DNA of 34,765 bases, from NCBI GenBank assembly GCA_003245575.1, contig QKCR01000097.1, positions 1 through 34,765 of the forward strand. Reading direction: 5' to 3'. A program made the translations under genes and the position numbers. The notes beneath the pieces are model-generated. The model saw only the letters and a list, made by a program, of their open reading frames with translations, did no database searches and was not told the DNA's origin. The DNA comes from Alphaproteobacteria bacterium. GTDB taxonomy: Bacteria > Pseudomonadota > Alphaproteobacteria > Micavibrionales > Micavibrionaceae. The first letter of the stretch is position 1. The number at the start of each line of letters is the position of its first letter. Positions 24,055-32,302 of the stretch are shown in pieces.

Positions 24055-24131
24055 TGGTGCGCCAGGAGGGACTCGAACCCCCGGCCAAGCCGTTATGAGC
24101 GGCTTGCTCTAACCAACTGAGCTACTAGCGC
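24055..24131 (-). tRNA. tRNA with CAT anticodon (elongator Met or Ile2)
   Basis: On the minus strand a full cloverleaf of 77 bases including an encoded CCA. The acceptor stem GCGCTAG pairs with CTGGCGC (one G-U). The D arm GCTC/GAGC, the anticodon stem AGCCG/CGGCT with loop CTCATAA, and the T arm GGGGG/CCCTC with loop TTCGAGT are all present. The anticodon is CAT. G1-C72 pairing rules out the initiator type. C4-G69 followed by a U5-G68 wobble does not decide between methionine elongator and the lysidine-modified isoleucine tRNA. Confidence 0.95.
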
Positions 24132-24771: not shown

Positions 24772-27174
24772 TTAGGTATCGAGGAAGCTGCGCAGTTTGC
24801 GGGAGCGTGACGGGTGTTTCAGTTTCCGCAAGGCTTTAGCCTCAATCTGACGGATACGTTCACGTGTCACGTTAAATTGCTGTCCGACTTCTTCCAATGT
24901 ATGGTCGGTGTTCATACCGATACCGAAACGCATACGAAGAACACGCTCTTCACGAGGGGTCAATGTCGCCAATACGCGTGTTGTTGTTTCACGCAAGTTG
25001 GACTGAATTGCACTCTCGACAGGGAGAATTGCGTTTTTGTCCTCGATGAAATCCCCCAATGATGAATCTTCTTCATCCCCGATTGGTGTTTCAAGAGAGA
25101 CAGGTTCTTTGGCAATTTTCAAGACTTTACGCACTTTATCAAGCGGCATGTGAAGGCGAACCGCCAATTCCTCAGGTGTAGGCTCACGACCGATCTCGTG
25201 CATCATCTGACGGGATGTCCGCACCAATTTGTTGATGGTTTCGATCATGTGCACAGGGATACGGATTGTTCGGGCCTGATCCGCAATGGAACGGGTAATG
25301 GCCTGTCTAATCCACCATGTCGCATAGGTCGAGAATTTATAGCCGCGGCGATATTCGAATTTATCAACGGCTTTCATCAACCCGATGTTTCCTTCCTGAA
25401 TCAAATCCAAGAATTGCAAACCGCGGTTGGTGTATTTCTTGGCGATAGAAATCACGAGACGCAAGTTGGCCTCAATCATTTCTTTTTTCGCACGGTTGGA
25501 TTCTTTGTCGCCTTTCTGAACGGTCGAGACAATGCGCTTATACTCAAGGAGTGGCAATCCGCTTTCAGATGCGATCGCGTCAATCTGATCACGAATAGCG
25601 TCTACATCACCTTCATGACGTTCCGCAAATTTATCCCAGCCCTTGCCGGTCAATTTTTTAACGGATGTTTTCCAGTTCCCGATCAGAAGTGCGTCTTCGT
25701 ATTTCCCCAAGAACTCTTCACGTGTCACACCGCAATCGTTAGCAAGACGCAACATGCGCCCTTCCAACGACACCAAGTCACGGTTCATTTTGTAAAGTCG
25801 TTCAATCAACTGGTCGATACGCGCTGCGTTCAAACGTACTTCGTTCATCAATGCAACCATTTCGGCTTTGGCGGCATCGTATTTTTTGACAATCGGAGCG
25901 GACGGATTTTTTCCGGCAGCAATTTTTTCTTGCTGTGCTTTCTGGAGTTTTTTGTATGTCTTTTTAATCTGTTCGAAGATCGGGAATACTTTTGGAGCAA
26001 GTTCTGCTTCCATAGCCGCCAAAGACAATGAATTTTCATCGGCATCGTCGGTTGATCCGTCTTCGCCGTCCTCACCCTCTGGGTTTGGAGTTTCTTCATC
26101 GTCAGAAGATTTCTTTTCTTCTTTCTTTGGTTTTTCTTTTGGTGCAGGAGCCGGTTTTTCGGCAGGAATTGCAGGCGCACCGTCACCGGAACCATCAAAT
26201 GCATTATCTCCGCCGTATGTTGCTTCAAGGTCGATCACTTCACGAAGCAAAATGTCGCCTTTTTGCAAGGCGTCGTACCATGCAATGATTGATTCAATTG
26301 CCAGAGGAGACTCACAAATCCCTCCGATCATGGTCTCGCGTCCGGCTTCAATACGTTTAGCAATTGCGATCTCGCCTTCACGAGACAGCAATTCGACTGT
26401 TCCCATTTCGCGCAAGTACATACGCACAGGGTCGTCAGTGCGCCCAGTGTCATCGTCAGAGATGTTCCCGCCGCTTTCGTACTCTTCTTCGTTGCTTTCG
26501 TCTTTGGACTCTTGCTGCTCGCCCTCTTCACCCGCATCATCAGAGCTGTCAACGAGCTGAACGCCTGAATCAGAGATTGTTGCCATAGCATCTTCGATCT
26601 GGTCAGATGAAAATTCTTCTGCGGGCAACATGTTGTTCAGATCGTCATAGGTTACATAGCCCTGTTCTTTTCCTTTGGAAATGAGCTTTTTAACCATCTT
26701 CTCCAGATTGCCTTTTTGACCGGTGGTAATAGCCAACTCCGCAGGCGGTTTTTTATCCGCAACGGATTTCTTTTTAGAAGCTGGGGCTTTCTTCACGGCT
26801 TTGGTCGCTTTAACCGGAGCTTTTTCTACTTCTGCTTCCTCAACGGCTTTACTTGCCTTTGATGCTTTTGTTTCTTTTGCCGGAGATGCCTTTGTGGCCT
26901 TCTCGGTTGTTTTTGCTGTTTTCTTTGCCGCCGCTGTTTTTGGCATTTTGTCCGTCTGTGTGTTTTTTGTTGTTTTGCTGGTTGTTTCTTTTACTGCTTT
27001 TTTAGCCGGGGCTTTCGTTGTAGAGCTTGGCTTTGCCGTACTCTTCGCTGCTGCTTTGGCCGGCTTTTTCTCAGCCGGTTTTTTTGTATCTTTTGCCTTG
27101 GTTGTTGATCCTACCTTGGCTTTCGTACTCGCAGTTGTCTTAGAGGGTGTCTTTGCTTGCTTTTTCGCCGCCAT
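24772..27174 (-). CDS. rpoD: Primary RNA polymerase sigma factor, with long basic N-terminal extension
   Basis: An 800-residue sigma-70; E. coli RpoD has 613. Residues 1-150 are a Lys/Ala/Thr/Pro-rich low-complexity extension like histone H1 tails. Region 1.1 follows at about 155-212, region 1.2 at 245-282 ([22 protein letters not shown]), and an acidic stretch lies in the non-conserved part (about 340-385). Region 2 is complete ([38 protein letters not shown]), as are region 3 and region 4.2 ([21 protein letters not shown]). It is the housekeeping factor for promoter recognition. It lies downstream of dnaG as in the macromolecular synthesis operon; rpsU is not here. Only weak ribosome-binding sequence precedes the ATG. 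Confidence 0.96.
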
Positions 27175-27246: not shown

Positions 27247-27276
27247 GAATCACCCGAATCGAATCGATTCGATTCG
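27247..27276. promoter_or_regulatory. Array of five GANTC sites with a 22-base perfect palindrome upstream of rpoD
   Basis: CGAATCGAATC is followed directly by its reverse complement (27255-27276). The palindrome is made of four abutting GANTC sites (27256, 27261, 27266 and 27271), and a fifth lies at 27247-27251. GANTC is the target of the cell-cycle methyltransferase CcrM in alphaproteobacteria. The cluster lies in the 151-base gap between dnaG and rpoD, 70-100 bases before the rpoD start. Confidence 0.7.
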
Positions 27277-27325
27277 CTGATTAAAGCCGATTTTGCAGAA
27301 AAAACAAAGGCCTAAGGCGTGAAAA

Positions 27326-29212
27326 TTAGTCACTTTCCTCAGTCTGTTCCATTTGCATTTGCTTGAGTGCCAACATTCTGCCCTCATCCTCTGCTGTCAT
27401 GGACTTGGTCAGCATCTGCTTAGCGGCGTTCAAATCCGCAGAAAACATGGTTTTCTCCCATCGGCTCATGAGAGATTTCCATCCTTCCAGCACCTTTTCC
27501 GGGGTGACATCGGGCCGGGCAAATCCGGCATGGACATAAAGGCGTTCATTTTTGATCAGCCTGTCACAAATTTCTGTCAGCCCCCGCGCAGTTATTTGGC
27601 TCAAAAGAGCCGTTTTGTCAAGGTCTGGCACTGTTTCAGCGTCAATTGACACCTCCATTGCCCCCGCATGGTTTTCCAGAATATCTATATAAGCGTCCTG
27701 CAAGGCTCTCAAATCATAATCGTCCATATCCAGACGGTGACAATCTTCGTGAATGTAGGGATAAATTTCCGGATGATTGATTGCGGTCAAGAGCAACAAA
27801 CGCGGGATCATGGTCTCGGCCTGTCTTTGCCCTACCGGAGGCAGCTTGATCTGCACCCCGCCCCCACCTCTGACCGAAGTGGATGATTTCCCTGCTTTGC
27901 TCCAGCCGAAGCCGAATAGTTTATTCAGTTTTTCACGGAAGGCCTGTTTGTAATGATACTGCAATTGCGCATCCGGGATAATGAGTGCCAAATTTTCTAG
28001 TTTGGTTGATAGTCCGGCACGCTGTTCCGGCGTGACAAATGTCTGACCTGCCGTATTATGCGCCCATAAAAATTCCACTAGTGGAGCAGCTCTATTTAAT
28101 AACTGCTTGAACGCGTCACCTCCGTTTTCACGGATAAAGGTGTCGGGGTCATCGCCTTCGGGCAGGAAGGCAATTTTCACAGAGTGCGAAGATTTTAAAA
28201 GCGGTAAGATGCGATCTGCTGCACGCACTGCAGCTCTGTACCCTGCCTCATCACCATCAAAACACAAGATCGGCTCTTTATTATCGTGTGGAATCATCTT
28301 CCACAAAATCATGATCTGCTCTTCTGTCAGAGCAGTTCCCAAAGGCGCAACCGCCCCTTTAAATCCGGCTTGCTGACAGGCAATGACATCCATATAACCT
28401 TCAACAACCAAAACATCGTGGTCATTGGCTGCAAGCCTTGCGTGCTGCCCTGCGTAGAGCGTCCGCCCTTTATGAAAGAGCGGCGTATCCGCAGAGTTAA
28501 TATATTTCGGCGGTGTAAAATCAGAGCGCGAAGGTGGACGCATATGCTCAGGCAAAACACGTCCTCCGAATGCCACAACACGGCCGCGTGCATCCATCAC
28601 CGGGAAGATCACACGATCACGGAAGAAAGCATAAGGAGCAGTTCCACGCGTTGACGCCTTCGTAACGCCAGCCTCAATCATCTGAGCATCTGAGTATCCC
28701 GCCTGATTTAAATGATTGCGCAAAGCTTGGTCATCTGAAGGTGCGTAGCCCAGGCGGAATGCATCTATAATTTCGTCACCAAACCCACGTCCTTTGACGT
28801 AGTCGAGAACTTCACGGTTGCGCGGATTATGCAGTTGTTCTTCAAACCATTTGGCTGCTGCCTCACACAAGGAGTGAAGGCCTTTATCTTTTTTTGATTG
28901 AGCCACATCTTGTGGGGTTGATTGCGGGACTTGCATTCCGATCTTACTGGCCAATTGCTCGACAGCTTCAATAAACGACAAATTGTCATGGCGCATCACA
29001 AATGCCAGTGCATCTCCGTGTGCACCACATCCGAAGCAATGAAAAAATTGCTTGTCATCATTGACATGAAAGGATGGTGTCTTTTCACGGTGAAATGGAC
29101 AACAGCCTTTAAATTCCCTTCCCGCACGGGTGAGTTTGATGCGCCCGCCGATGACATCGGACAGGGTCAGGCGATCTCGCAATTCCTGTAAAAAGCGCGG
29201 GGACACAGACAT
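27326..29212 (-). CDS. dnaG: DNA primase
   Basis: A 628-residue primase that makes RNA primers at the replication fork. The N-terminal CHC2 zinc ribbon uses C38, H41, C59 and C62 (CCPFHREKTPSFH, then HCFGCG). The catalytic core follows with YAPFS replaced by YAPSDD, GRVVAFGGR, and the TOPRIM domain with VVEGYMDVIACQQAG and FDGDEAGYRAA for metal binding. The C-terminal part (from about 450) would be the helicase-binding domain and is less conserved. The start ATG has no strong ribosome site; a GCATTG/CAATGC inverted repeat lies 13-32 bases upstream. It is divergent from the small gene at 29317. Confidence 0.96.
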   Translation of the reverse strand: MSVSPRFLQELRDRLTLSDVIGGRIKLTRAGREFKGCCPFHREKTPSFHVNDDKQFFHCFGCGAHGDALAFVMRHDNLSFIEAVEQLASKIGMQVPQSTPQDVAQSKKDKGLHSLCEAAAKWFEEQLHNPRNREVLDYVKGRGFGDEIIDAFRLGYAPSDDQALRNHLNQAGYSDAQMIEAGVTKASTRGTAPYAFFRDRVIFPVMDARGRVVAFGGRVLPEHMRPPSRSDFTPPKYINSADTPLFHKGRTLYAGQHARLAANDHDVLVVEGYMDVIACQQAGFKGAVAPLGTALTEEQIMILWKMIPHDNKEPILCFDGDEAGYRAAVRAADRILPLLKSSHSVKIAFLPEGDDPDTFIRENGGDAFKQLLNRAAPLVEFLWAHNTAGQTFVTPEQRAGLSTKLENLALIIPDAQLQYHYKQAFREKLNKLFGFGWSKAGKSSTSVRGGGGVQIKLPPVGQRQAETMIPRLLLLTAINHPEIYPYIHEDCHRLDMDDYDLRALQDAYIDILENHAGAMEVSIDAETVPDLDKTALLSQITARGLTEICDRLIKNERLYVHAGFARPDVTPEKVLEGWKSLMSRWEKTMFSADLNAAKQMLTKSMTAEDEGRMLALKQMQMEQTEESD

Positions 29213-29603: not shown

Positions 29604-31766
29604 CTATCTTTGGTTTGGCACTGGGTAAGGATATGGCTGGATCACTATGCCGCCGTTCGATCCCCCGACATATCCTCCATTGGATGGTTGTGCTTCCAGT
29701 CCTGCAGCGGTTTTGGCTTTATGGACCAGCGTAATGAACTCAGCGCGGTAGCCATACGGGTCATCTCCTTTGGCCTCTTGTGCCAGTTTGAGCACGTCGT
29801 CATAGGTCATAGCTCCCGTGTATTTACCGCCTTTCAAAATTTGAGCAAAGCTTGCAACTGCCACAGCCCAATCTGTTTCCGATTCCAATGCCTGATTATC
29901 CGTCCCTGTGGTCGCTGTAACCGGTGTCGTCAGAAGTTTTGACGTGTCTTCATTCGGCAATTTGTAGCGCACTTTAACGAAAGCCAGTTCATTTGACGCG
30001 ACTTTGTTTTCTTCCAAAGTAGGTTGAGCATATCTACTCGGATCAACTGCAGTCGGGCCACCGACAGGCGTGATTTCATAGATCGCTGTAACCTCTGCCC
30101 CTGCTCCGATGTCGCCTGCATCAACTTTATCATTGTTAAAGTCTTCAGTTTTCAGTGCGCGGGTTTCATATCCGACAAGGCGATATTCTGCAACGGTTGA
30201 CGGATTAAACTCGACTTGGATTTTGACATCCTTGGCAATCGGGAACAAAGTTTTTGTAGCCTCTTCAACCAAGACTTTGCGGGCTTCGCTCAGGCTGTCG
30301 ATATAGGCGGCTGTGCCGTTACCGTTTTGTGCCAGAGTTTGCATCATAGCATCGTTATAGTTGCCGCGACCAAATCCGAGAACAGAGAGGAATATTCCTT
30401 TGTCTTTTTCGCGTTCGACAAAATCTTTCAGCTCTTCCTGATTAGTGATGCCAACATTAAAGTCGCCGTCAGTTCCTAAGATCACGCGATTGACGGAGTT
30501 TTTATCGAAGTTCATTTCCGCCAATTGATAAGCCTGACGAATACCTTCGGCTCCTGCTGTCCCACCGCCTGCGGAAAGGTTTTGAAGGGCTAATAAAATC
30601 TGATTTTTATTTTCAACGCGGGTTGGAGGAAGAACTGTTCCTGCTGCCCCTGCATAAACAACAATCGCCACCGTATCTGTCGGCTTCAAGGTGTCGAGCA
30701 ACAACGCAATCGATTGTTTCAAGAGCGGGAGTTTTGCGGGTTCATTCATTGATCCCGAGACATCCAACAAGAATACGAGATTGCTGTTCGGCATAGATGT
30801 TTTTGGAATATCATAGCCTTTGATTCCGATGGTCATCAATTTCTTGCCTTCGCCCCACGGAGACGGTTTCATCACGACATTGGTGCTGAACGGTTGGGTT
30901 TTATCTTCAGGCAACGGATACGCATAATCAAAGTAATTGATCATTTCCTCAATACGGATCGAGTCTTTTTGCGGCAAGACACCGCGATCAAGACTGGAAC
31001 GTGCGAAGGAATATGATGCCGTATCAACATCAATCGAGAAGGTCGAGATCGGTTCTGCTTTAACAGCCTTGATCGGGCTTTCTTCAAACTCTTCGAATTT
31101 ATCGCGTCCAAATTCTTGTTGTCTTTGAGCGACAACATCCATTTCAGCAACCATAGGAGCAACAGATGCCGGTGAAGGTACAGATGATACTACCATATCG
31201 CTGGACATTGAGGCACTGTCACCGACCAATCCAGTAGCAGCCCCTACACTCCCAATCCTGCTGACAGTTGCGGCCGTTGCCATTTCTGCTTCGGCTTTTT
31301 CTTTTTTACTTTCAGAGATTCCGAATAAACTTCCCAGAGTTGGCAGTGAGCTGACAGAATTTATCTGATTATTCGCAATATCATTAAATTTTCTTGAAGG
31401 CTGATTTTGATCAGCTTTTTGTTGAGGGGCTGATGCCCCTGATAAATTTGAAATCATAGCGGCATCGGACATGCTGCTTGTTGATAAGGTCGGGGCCGCC
31501 ACATTATAGACCAGTAATGCGACACAAGCTGTTGCCAGACCACCATAGATAACTTTTTTCTTGGAAAAGGACATTTTCTCACTCCTCTGATTAGGTTTGT
31601 TTCCTATCAGACGTGACCAGAATCCATTTCCTTGGGAACTATTTTCACTTTTTTTGTTTTTTTCAAATTCGGCAACCGCCAAATTGAGAGCAACCTTACG
31701 GGCGTTCTCGTCAGGTGTCGGAATTTCCTCAGCAGCGAAGAGGTTTTTGAGGTCGTCTTCGGTCAT
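29604..31766 (-). CDS. VWA-domain protein (YfbK-like) with N-terminal cytoplasmic domain and one membrane span
   Basis: A 720-residue protein. Residues 1-70 are a charged cytoplasmic segment, 73-92 one membrane span, and the rest is predicted periplasmic, so there is no cleaved signal peptide. ISTFSIDVDTASYSFARSSL (240-259) marks the YfbK-type domain before the VWA domain (about 328-505). The metal site is intact: DVSGSM (335-340), GGGTAG (400-405) and GTDGDFN (431-437). The C-terminal part (DYDVL-type KLAQEAKGDDPYGYRAEFITLV) fits the DUF3520 domain. Its ATG overlaps the stop of the ECF sigma gene by four bases. The short cytoplasmic N-terminus and the coupling make an anti-sigma or sensor role likely, but this is inference. 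Confidence 0.87.
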   Translation of the reverse strand: MTEDDLKNLFAAEEIPTPDENARKVALNLAVAEFEKNKKSENSSQGNGFWSRLIGNKPNQRSEKMSFSKKKVIYGGLATACVALLVYNVAAPTLSTSSMSDAAMISNLSGASAPQQKADQNQPSRKFNDIANNQINSVSSLPTLGSLFGISESKKEKAEAEMATAATVSRIGSVGAATGLVGDSASMSSDMVVSSVPSPASVAPMVAEMDVVAQRQQEFGRDKFEEFEESPIKAVKAEPISTFSIDVDTASYSFARSSLDRGVLPQKDSIRIEEMINYFDYAYPLPEDKTQPFSTNVVMKPSPWGEGKKLMTIGIKGYDIPKTSMPNSNLVFLLDVSGSMNEPAKLPLLKQSIALLLDTLKPTDTVAIVVYAGAAGTVLPPTRVENKNQILLALQNLSAGGGTAGAEGIRQAYQLAEMNFDKNSVNRVILGTDGDFNVGITNQEELKDFVEREKDKGIFLSVLGFGRGNYNDAMMQTLAQNGNGTAAYIDSLSEARKVLVEEATKTLFPIAKDVKIQVEFNPSTVAEYRLVGYETRALKTEDFNNDKVDAGDIGAGAEVTAIYEITPVGGPTAVDPSRYAQPTLEENKVASNELAFVKVRYKLPNEDTSKLLTTPVTATTGTDNQALESETDWAVAVASFAQILKGGKYTGAMTYDDVLKLAQEAKGDDPYGYRAEFITLVHKAKTAAGLEAQPSNGGYVGGSNGGIVIQPYPYPVPNQR

Positions 31767-32302
31767 ATTTTTCCTCCCTCTTTCAATATCTTACGGGCTT
31801 CGTTGATGCGCCAAGAGATTGTGCCTTCGGCCATTCCCATGATTTTGGCGACTTCCTTATGAGTTAGACCTTCTCCATAAACCAACCAAACAATTTCACG
31901 TTCCGGCTCGGGCAGATTATAGACCGCGGCCATTTTCTGAGTAGTTTCAAAGGCCTGTTCGGGATTATCACTCGTCGGAAGGACATTTTCGACGGTTTCA
32001 AGGCCTATGGAACCTCGATCATGGCGCACTTGCGTGCGTTTCCAGTCACGGCCCGTATTGAGCACGACTGTATAAAGCCATGTGGTGAAGGAAGAATCTC
32101 CCTTAAAGGACGATATATTTTGAGCCAGTTTAATACAGGTCAATTGCGTCACATCCTCTGCGTCATGTTTGTTGCCACAAAAACGGAACGCCATGCGAAA
32201 GATGGTTGTATAATGGATTTCGAGAAGGTCACGGAAAGCCCGCTCGTCGCCGTTTGCAGCGCGATTAGCCAGTGCCATATCGTCTTTTTTCCCATCTGTC
32301 AT
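31763..32302 (-). CDS. ECF-type RNA polymerase sigma factor
   Basis: A 179-residue sigma-70 family protein with only regions 2 and 4. Region 2 is HYTTIFRMAFRFCGNKHDAE, DVTQLTCIKLAQNI and FTTWLYTVVLNTGRDWKR. Region 4 runs LPEPEREIVWLVYGEGLTHK, EVAKIMGMAEGTISWRINEA, RKILKEG, with the helix-turn-helix typical of ECF factors. It is coupled to the VWA protein by an ATGA overlap. The short leader (minus strand GGATTT around 32342 and CGTCTC around 32324) may hold an autoregulated ECF promoter, though the spacing is 12 bases rather than the usual 16 or so. Confidence 0.93.
   Translation of the reverse strand: MTDGKKDDMALANRAANGDERAFRDLLEIHYTTIFRMAFRFCGNKHDAEDVTQLTCIKLAQNISSFKGDSSFTTWLYTVVLNTGRDWKRTQVRHDRGSIGLETVENVLPTSDNPEQAFETTQKMAAVYNLPEPEREIVWLVYGEGLTHKEVAKIMGMAEGTISWRINEARKILKEGGKI

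Follow-up and report, generated by a model that had tools for sequence, protein, structure and literature searches.

What do five GANTC sites, four of them abutting in a perfect palindrome, do immediately upstream of the gene for a primary sigma factor? The sites lie between dnaG and rpoD in the window, the whole 34,765-nucleotide stretch of DNA that was analysed, which belongs to a draft genome of 2.30 Mb in 160 contigs. An earlier note, made from the letters of this DNA, had offered two answers, cell-cycle methylation by CcrM and the binding of a dimeric protein to the palindrome, and conservation among relatives supports the CcrM interpretation and not the palindrome interpretation. With a probability of roughly 60%, we read the array as a CcrM-methylated, GcrA-type control element of the rpoD promoter, which probably couples expression of rpoD to cell-cycle methylation by CcrM, with GcrA as its reader, and not to a special palindrome.

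The GANTC array between dnaG and rpoD

The two genes and the palindrome are placed as follows.

24772 to 27174, minus strand: rpoD open reading frame, primary sigma factor of 800 aa (NCBIfam NF004208 RpoD, 886 bits)
27255 to 27276, no strand: perfect 22-bp palindrome of four abutting GANTC sites, single copy in the genome and in none of the 114 relatives
27326 to 29212, minus strand: dnaG, DNA primase, the upstream gene (NCBIfam TIGR01391, 432.7 bits)

Matches to dnaG were found in 110 of 115 genomes. By dnaG, the closest named records are from isolate HKST-UBA28 (85% identity) and, at 76%, from 'Micavibrio sp. UBA6212' and 'Alphaproteobacteria bacterium CG1_02_46_17'; the host is treated here as a Micavibrio-like alphaproteobacterial lineage. 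Elsewhere in the window, at 29604-32302, an ECF-type sigma factor gene is followed on the same strand by a gene for a large von Willebrand-type protein, both named from their translations.

GANTC starts at 27247, 27256, 27261, 27266 and 27271, so that five sites fall within 27247-27275 of the 151-base gap between the two minus-strand genes, and the last four make up the palindrome CGAATCGAATCGATTCGATTCG, as the earlier note had described. This is the longest palindrome of the window, the runner-up measuring 16 bp. A search of the 2.30 Mb genome that allowed up to three mismatches returned no second copy of the 22-mer, and four abutting GAWTC units, like the 22-mer itself, occurred in none of the 114 relatives. 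The symmetry is no separate surprise, since only the N letters need to match: by arithmetic, one in four arrays of four abutting GAWTC units will be palindromic, and the palindrome is largely a by-product of GANTC being nearly palindromic itself. The impression that it is striking in its own right therefore did not hold up, and it is the array, rather than the symmetry, that needs explaining.

The background against which the array stands is sparser than the one site per about 256 bases that had been assumed. The window contains 87 GANTC sites compared to 153 in dinucleotide shuffles, a depletion to about 1 per 400 bases, which agrees with the GANTC scarcity reported for CcrM-bearing Alphaproteobacteria (PMC3973325). 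Abutting pairs are at chance level genome-wide, with 12 matches, three of them in the rpoD array, compared to eight for a reversed-pattern control. The rpoD array does not come from chance.

Promoter anatomy and conservation of the sites

Comparison of the dnaG-rpoD gap across relatives revealed a conserved block, CTTTG(T/A)TTTTTCTGCAAAATCGG(C/G)TTTAATCAGCGAATC, which we read as the sigma-70 promoter of rpoD, with TTTGTT, 17 nt and TTTAAT and a predicted start inside the first GANTC. TTTGTT-17-TTTAAT is conserved in the genus, but an E. coli consensus promoter scan of the region did not report a promoter here. The elements, in the order of transcription, with offsets counted from the -10 hexamer, are these.

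27303 to 27308, minus strand: -35-like hexamer TTTGTT, conserved in the family as CTTTG(A/T)TTT, 17-nt spacer to the -10
27280 to 27285, minus strand: -10-like hexamer TTTAAT, conserved across the family as TTTAATC or TTAAATC
27272 to 27274, minus strand: predicted transcription start, 6-8 nt past the -10 by the usual sigma-70 spacing
27271 to 27275, no strand: GANTC at offset +4, the best-conserved position, which overlaps the predicted start
27266 to 27270, no strand: GANTC at +9, missing from G009 alone among the nine readable genus members
27261 to 27265, no strand: GANTC at +14, common to G000 (this genome), G007, G004, G005 and G002
27256 to 27260, no strand: GANTC at +19, in this genome only, the spacing being that of G007 and the site a product of substitutions
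27247 to 27251, no strand: GANTC at +28, with a site at +28 to +30 in eight of the nine genus members that could be read

All of the GANTC sites fall within -40 to +40 of the predicted, unmapped start. A terminator of dnaG was also considered for this region and was rejected, as the region has no terminator-like site.

The promoter could be read in nine members of the genus, G008 and G010 not being readable in the same way, and the offsets after the -10 were as follows.

G000 (this genome): 4, 9, 14, 19, 28
G007, G002, G004, G005: 4, 9, 14, 28, with an extra site at 40 in G004
G006: 4, 9, 20, 30
G001, G003: 4, 9, 29, plus one at -14
G009: 4, 21

The positions of GANTC relative to the promoter are thus kept in nine of nine readable members, and they extend to 18 of the 24 genera of the family, whereas the 22-mer is in none of the 114 relatives; what relatives keep is the sites and not the palindrome. 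The fourth abutting site was gained by substitution at constant spacing, as seen between G000 and G007. GA and TC are constant in these sites, and the middle base is not (GAATC or GAGTC at +4, GATTC or GAGTC at +28), as expected if a methylase site is the feature that is kept. These sites persist across species with about 70-75% DNA identity, compared to 17/52, 23/57 and 17/49 of the other GANTC sites of the window in G005, G004 and G002, respectively. G010 has a larger dnaG-rpoD gap, of about 630 bases, in which the usual promoter block could not be found. A tRNA-Met (cat) at 24055-24131 on the minus strand, which contains a GANTC at 24070, accounts for a stretch that is about 93% identical between species.

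At the level of the family, promoters were located by their -35/-10 score alone with a motif derived from the genus, nine of the 45 promoters being from genus members. GANTC occurred 0-30 nt past the -10 in 35 of these 45 (18/24 genera), compared to a mean of 7.8 and a maximum of 14 in 300 runs of dinucleotide shuffles of the same stretches, a comparison that overstates independence because family members share ancestry. With the genus excluded, 26 of 36 promoters still had a downstream site, and about one fifth of the recognisable family promoters had none; in the 30 nt preceding the downstream zone, GANTC was present in only 8 of 45. The modal position was +4, with 16 occurrences in the 45 promoters, and 19 promoters had GANTC at offsets 3 to 5 compared to 0.9 in shuffles (maximum 4). 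None of these figures is a clean probability, the species being related. Site density in the gap indicates that the feature belongs to the family and is not general to Alphaproteobacteria: 80 GANTC in 6188 bases (1 per 77) in the family, 11 in 3309 (1 per 300) among those genomes of the relatives sample that belong to other families and classes, and no enrichment in a class-wide alphaproteobacterial sample (9 in 4524, 1 per 503).

The context of the sites is also biased. The motif YGAKTCG, on either strand, was matched by 52 of 63 sites at family rpoD promoters compared to 3 of 82 other window sites, a count that is inflated by shared ancestry and because abutting sites force CG contexts. All four abutting sites match it on one strand, and single sites of other genera are mostly of this form too. 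PMC7987155 gives YGAKTCG as the extended GcrA motif, associated with activation, and reports that the Brevundimonas study detected no extended motif of this kind. A related count in the genus, 233 matches to TTNAATNNNNGANTC compared to 81 for the reversed pattern, led to no conclusion, since CTNAG, which is part of the control, may be scarce for unrelated causes.

Methylation machinery and competing readings

Control by CcrM had been proposed on the condition that the organism has the enzyme, and GcrA and CcrM are near universal among the 115 genomes. The GcrA gene is complete (C106:21003-21464, E 2.5e-45), and its product aligns with Caulobacter GcrA (7ye1, E 1e-36) over residues 1-161, which include the DNA-binding and sigma-binding domains. 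CcrM is represented in this assembly by its last 56 residues alone, at the edge of contig C91 and followed by a folB-like gene; the 5′ part of ccrM was not found elsewhere in the draft assembly. The fragment is 93% identical over 56 aa to CcrM of the sister species G007, where the neighbouring gene is identical in kind and CcrM is complete (389 aa, 533 bits to the CcrM structure 6pbd). A RAMA domain was detected in 108 of the 115 genomes. The proposal that CcrM controls rpoD is thus strengthened by the conserved GANTC positions and by the finding of ccrM, although one of the two things named in the earlier note as speaking against it, a palindrome not conserved in relatives, formally applies.

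In Caulobacter, GcrA is brought to promoters by methylated GANTC and, through its binding to region 2 of sigma-70, promotes opening (PMC3667746, PMC7403470); both binding and activation require methylation of GAnTC (PMC3667746), and GcrA is described as a sigma-70 cofactor (PMC7403470). By analogy, the rpoD promoter would consist of a conserved sigma-70-type element followed by GANTC from the start point into the first 30 or so transcribed bases. CcrM would place m6A on the GANTC adenines, and GcrA would bind the methylated sites, hold region 2 of sigma-70, and in this way be recruited and aid opening of the promoter. Transcription of rpoD would then track the methylation state (full, hemi or none) through replication and the cell cycle, and the extra abutting sites of the genus may give higher affinity or a graded response. 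A feedback loop is conceivable, as the target of GcrA would here be the gene for its sigma partner. We favour this GcrA-assisted, methylation-timed transcription because the arrangement is like that of PmipZ, with more copies, and we infer activation over repression, the direction being uncertain because methylation of the Agrobacterium gcrA promoter represses and Caulobacter promoters with sites outside -35/-10 are low in mid-cycle.

The opposite direction, which we consider unlikely, would have full methylation at the start slow promoter opening or escape of RNA polymerase, with hemimethylation behind the fork releasing a burst of rpoD transcription, and GcrA would not be needed. It is consistent with the placement of the sites at and past +1, outside the -35/-10 spacer, as Caulobacter promoters whose GANTC sites lie outside -35/-10 reach their minimum at 40-60 min, and in the class that is activated at this time the site falls between -35 and -10 and not at the start (PMC4287350). 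Methylation lowers the activity of the gcrA promoter region of Agrobacterium, which has six GANTC, even in E. coli (PMC11514494). However, the YGAKTCG bias (52/63 compared to 3/82) points to GcrA as reader, and the motif is activation-associated (PMC7987155); Caulobacter mipZ, with a site near the start, is activated (PMC3708114).

Quite improbable is the reading in which the bases past the -10 form a methylation-independent element of the core promoter or 5′ leader (discriminator, initial transcribed region or RNA structure) in which GANTC is coincidental. The modal +4 offset does suggest a constraint relative to RNA polymerase, but other genera place GANTC at +9 to +20, mostly as YGANTCG. 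A structured RNA leader was rejected, since the leader folded no better than shuffles (z -0.78) and all Rfam matches were below threshold.

A still smaller chance is given to the palindrome being the operator of a dimeric DNA-binding protein, such as a repressor of rpoD, with its GANTC content incidental. The 22-bp palindrome is perfect and far longer than any other in the window, and its 12-bp core CGAATCGATTCG is common to five genus members, but no relative has the 22-mer, and G006, G001, G003 and G009 lack the core, and with it the dyad symmetry, yet retain GANTC at +4. The sites differ in N but not in GA or TC, and many family members have a single site. The dimer-binding alternative was rejected on the loss of symmetry among these orthologous promoters and the absence of the 22-mer from relatives. 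Functionless, neutral tandem growth of a short repeat, which would fit the confinement of the fourth site to this species, is hardly credible, as that site arose by substitution without insertion and the rpoD sites are kept between species where most other window sites are not.

Related promoters and other GANTC clusters

The reading as a methylated, GcrA-type control element can be placed beside known systems. The GcrA/CcrM-activated promoters of Caulobacter (PmipZ, PftsZ, ctrA P1 and podJ) likewise have GANTC in or near a sigma-70 promoter and share the extended motif YGAKTCG, and both CcrM and GcrA are encoded there, as here. PmipZ has two juxtaposed GAnTC (PMC3667746), with a conserved site close to the start whose methylation activates (PMC3708114). 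The rpoD array differs in starting at the predicted +1 and in containing as many as four abutting sites, and rpoD was not found named as a GcrA/CcrM target in the portions of the literature examined. The gcrA promoter region of Agrobacterium tumefaciens resembles the array in being locally dense in GANTC, with six sites in the 250 bp that precede a core regulator, and methylation alters its activity, by repression (PMC11514494); its sites, unlike those at rpoD, are not reported as abutting, and the gene also differs. MucR-shielded hypomethylated promoters, with up to four GANTC and regulated methylation, are similar in this respect, but they need a shielding protein and their functions are reported as generally not conserved (PMC5172544). 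The earlier statement that no site of this form had been described is therefore borne out for a four-site abutting array, none of which was found in the literature examined, and is too broad in view of the two juxtaposed sites of PmipZ (PMC3667746) and the six of the Agrobacterium gcrA region (PMC11514494).

GcrA grips the primary sigma factor at methylated promoters. Were rpoD itself among the conserved targets of methylation, the reach of the GcrA-CcrM circuit would extend past division genes to general transcription. Within the genus, promoters that are closely similar are followed by one, two, three or four leading sites, a natural graded series in which the effect of site position and number on the methylation response is directly testable. 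The lineage is distant from Caulobacter, and mipZ seems to have been lost from the site-bearing set, which would add a case of regulon rewiring. In the 220 bases upstream of mipZ, a model CcrM/GcrA target in Caulobacter, 7 of 10 readable genus regions have no GANTC.

As to other clusters in this genome, triple GANTC clusters exceeded the control, with 21 matches compared to five for the reversed pattern. Most of eleven such loci examined are in coding sequence; the intergenic ones precede rpoD, gcrA and an HU-like gene behind lon. More tentatively, rpoD and gcrA may in this family both be driven from promoters with conserved clusters of CcrM sites, so that the pool of sigma-70 holoenzyme might be replication-timed, with the four rpoD sites serving as a multi-step methylation sensor of an architecture undescribed before, a possibility that we hold to be doubtful.

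The cluster behind lon lies in the gap before the gene for the HU-like DNA-binding protein (G000:C3:2680-2712), and another triple cluster of this genome overlaps the start of an flhF-like gene (G000:C95:40574-40604). Upstream of gcrA (G000:C106:20000-22000), three GANTC sites with 8/14-base spacing are found 114-136 bases before the gene, near the DnaA-box-like TGTGGATAA. The 250 bases upstream of gcrA hold six GANTC in this genome and nine in G007, and the spacing of the cluster is kept in 10 of 11 genus members, the exception being G010.
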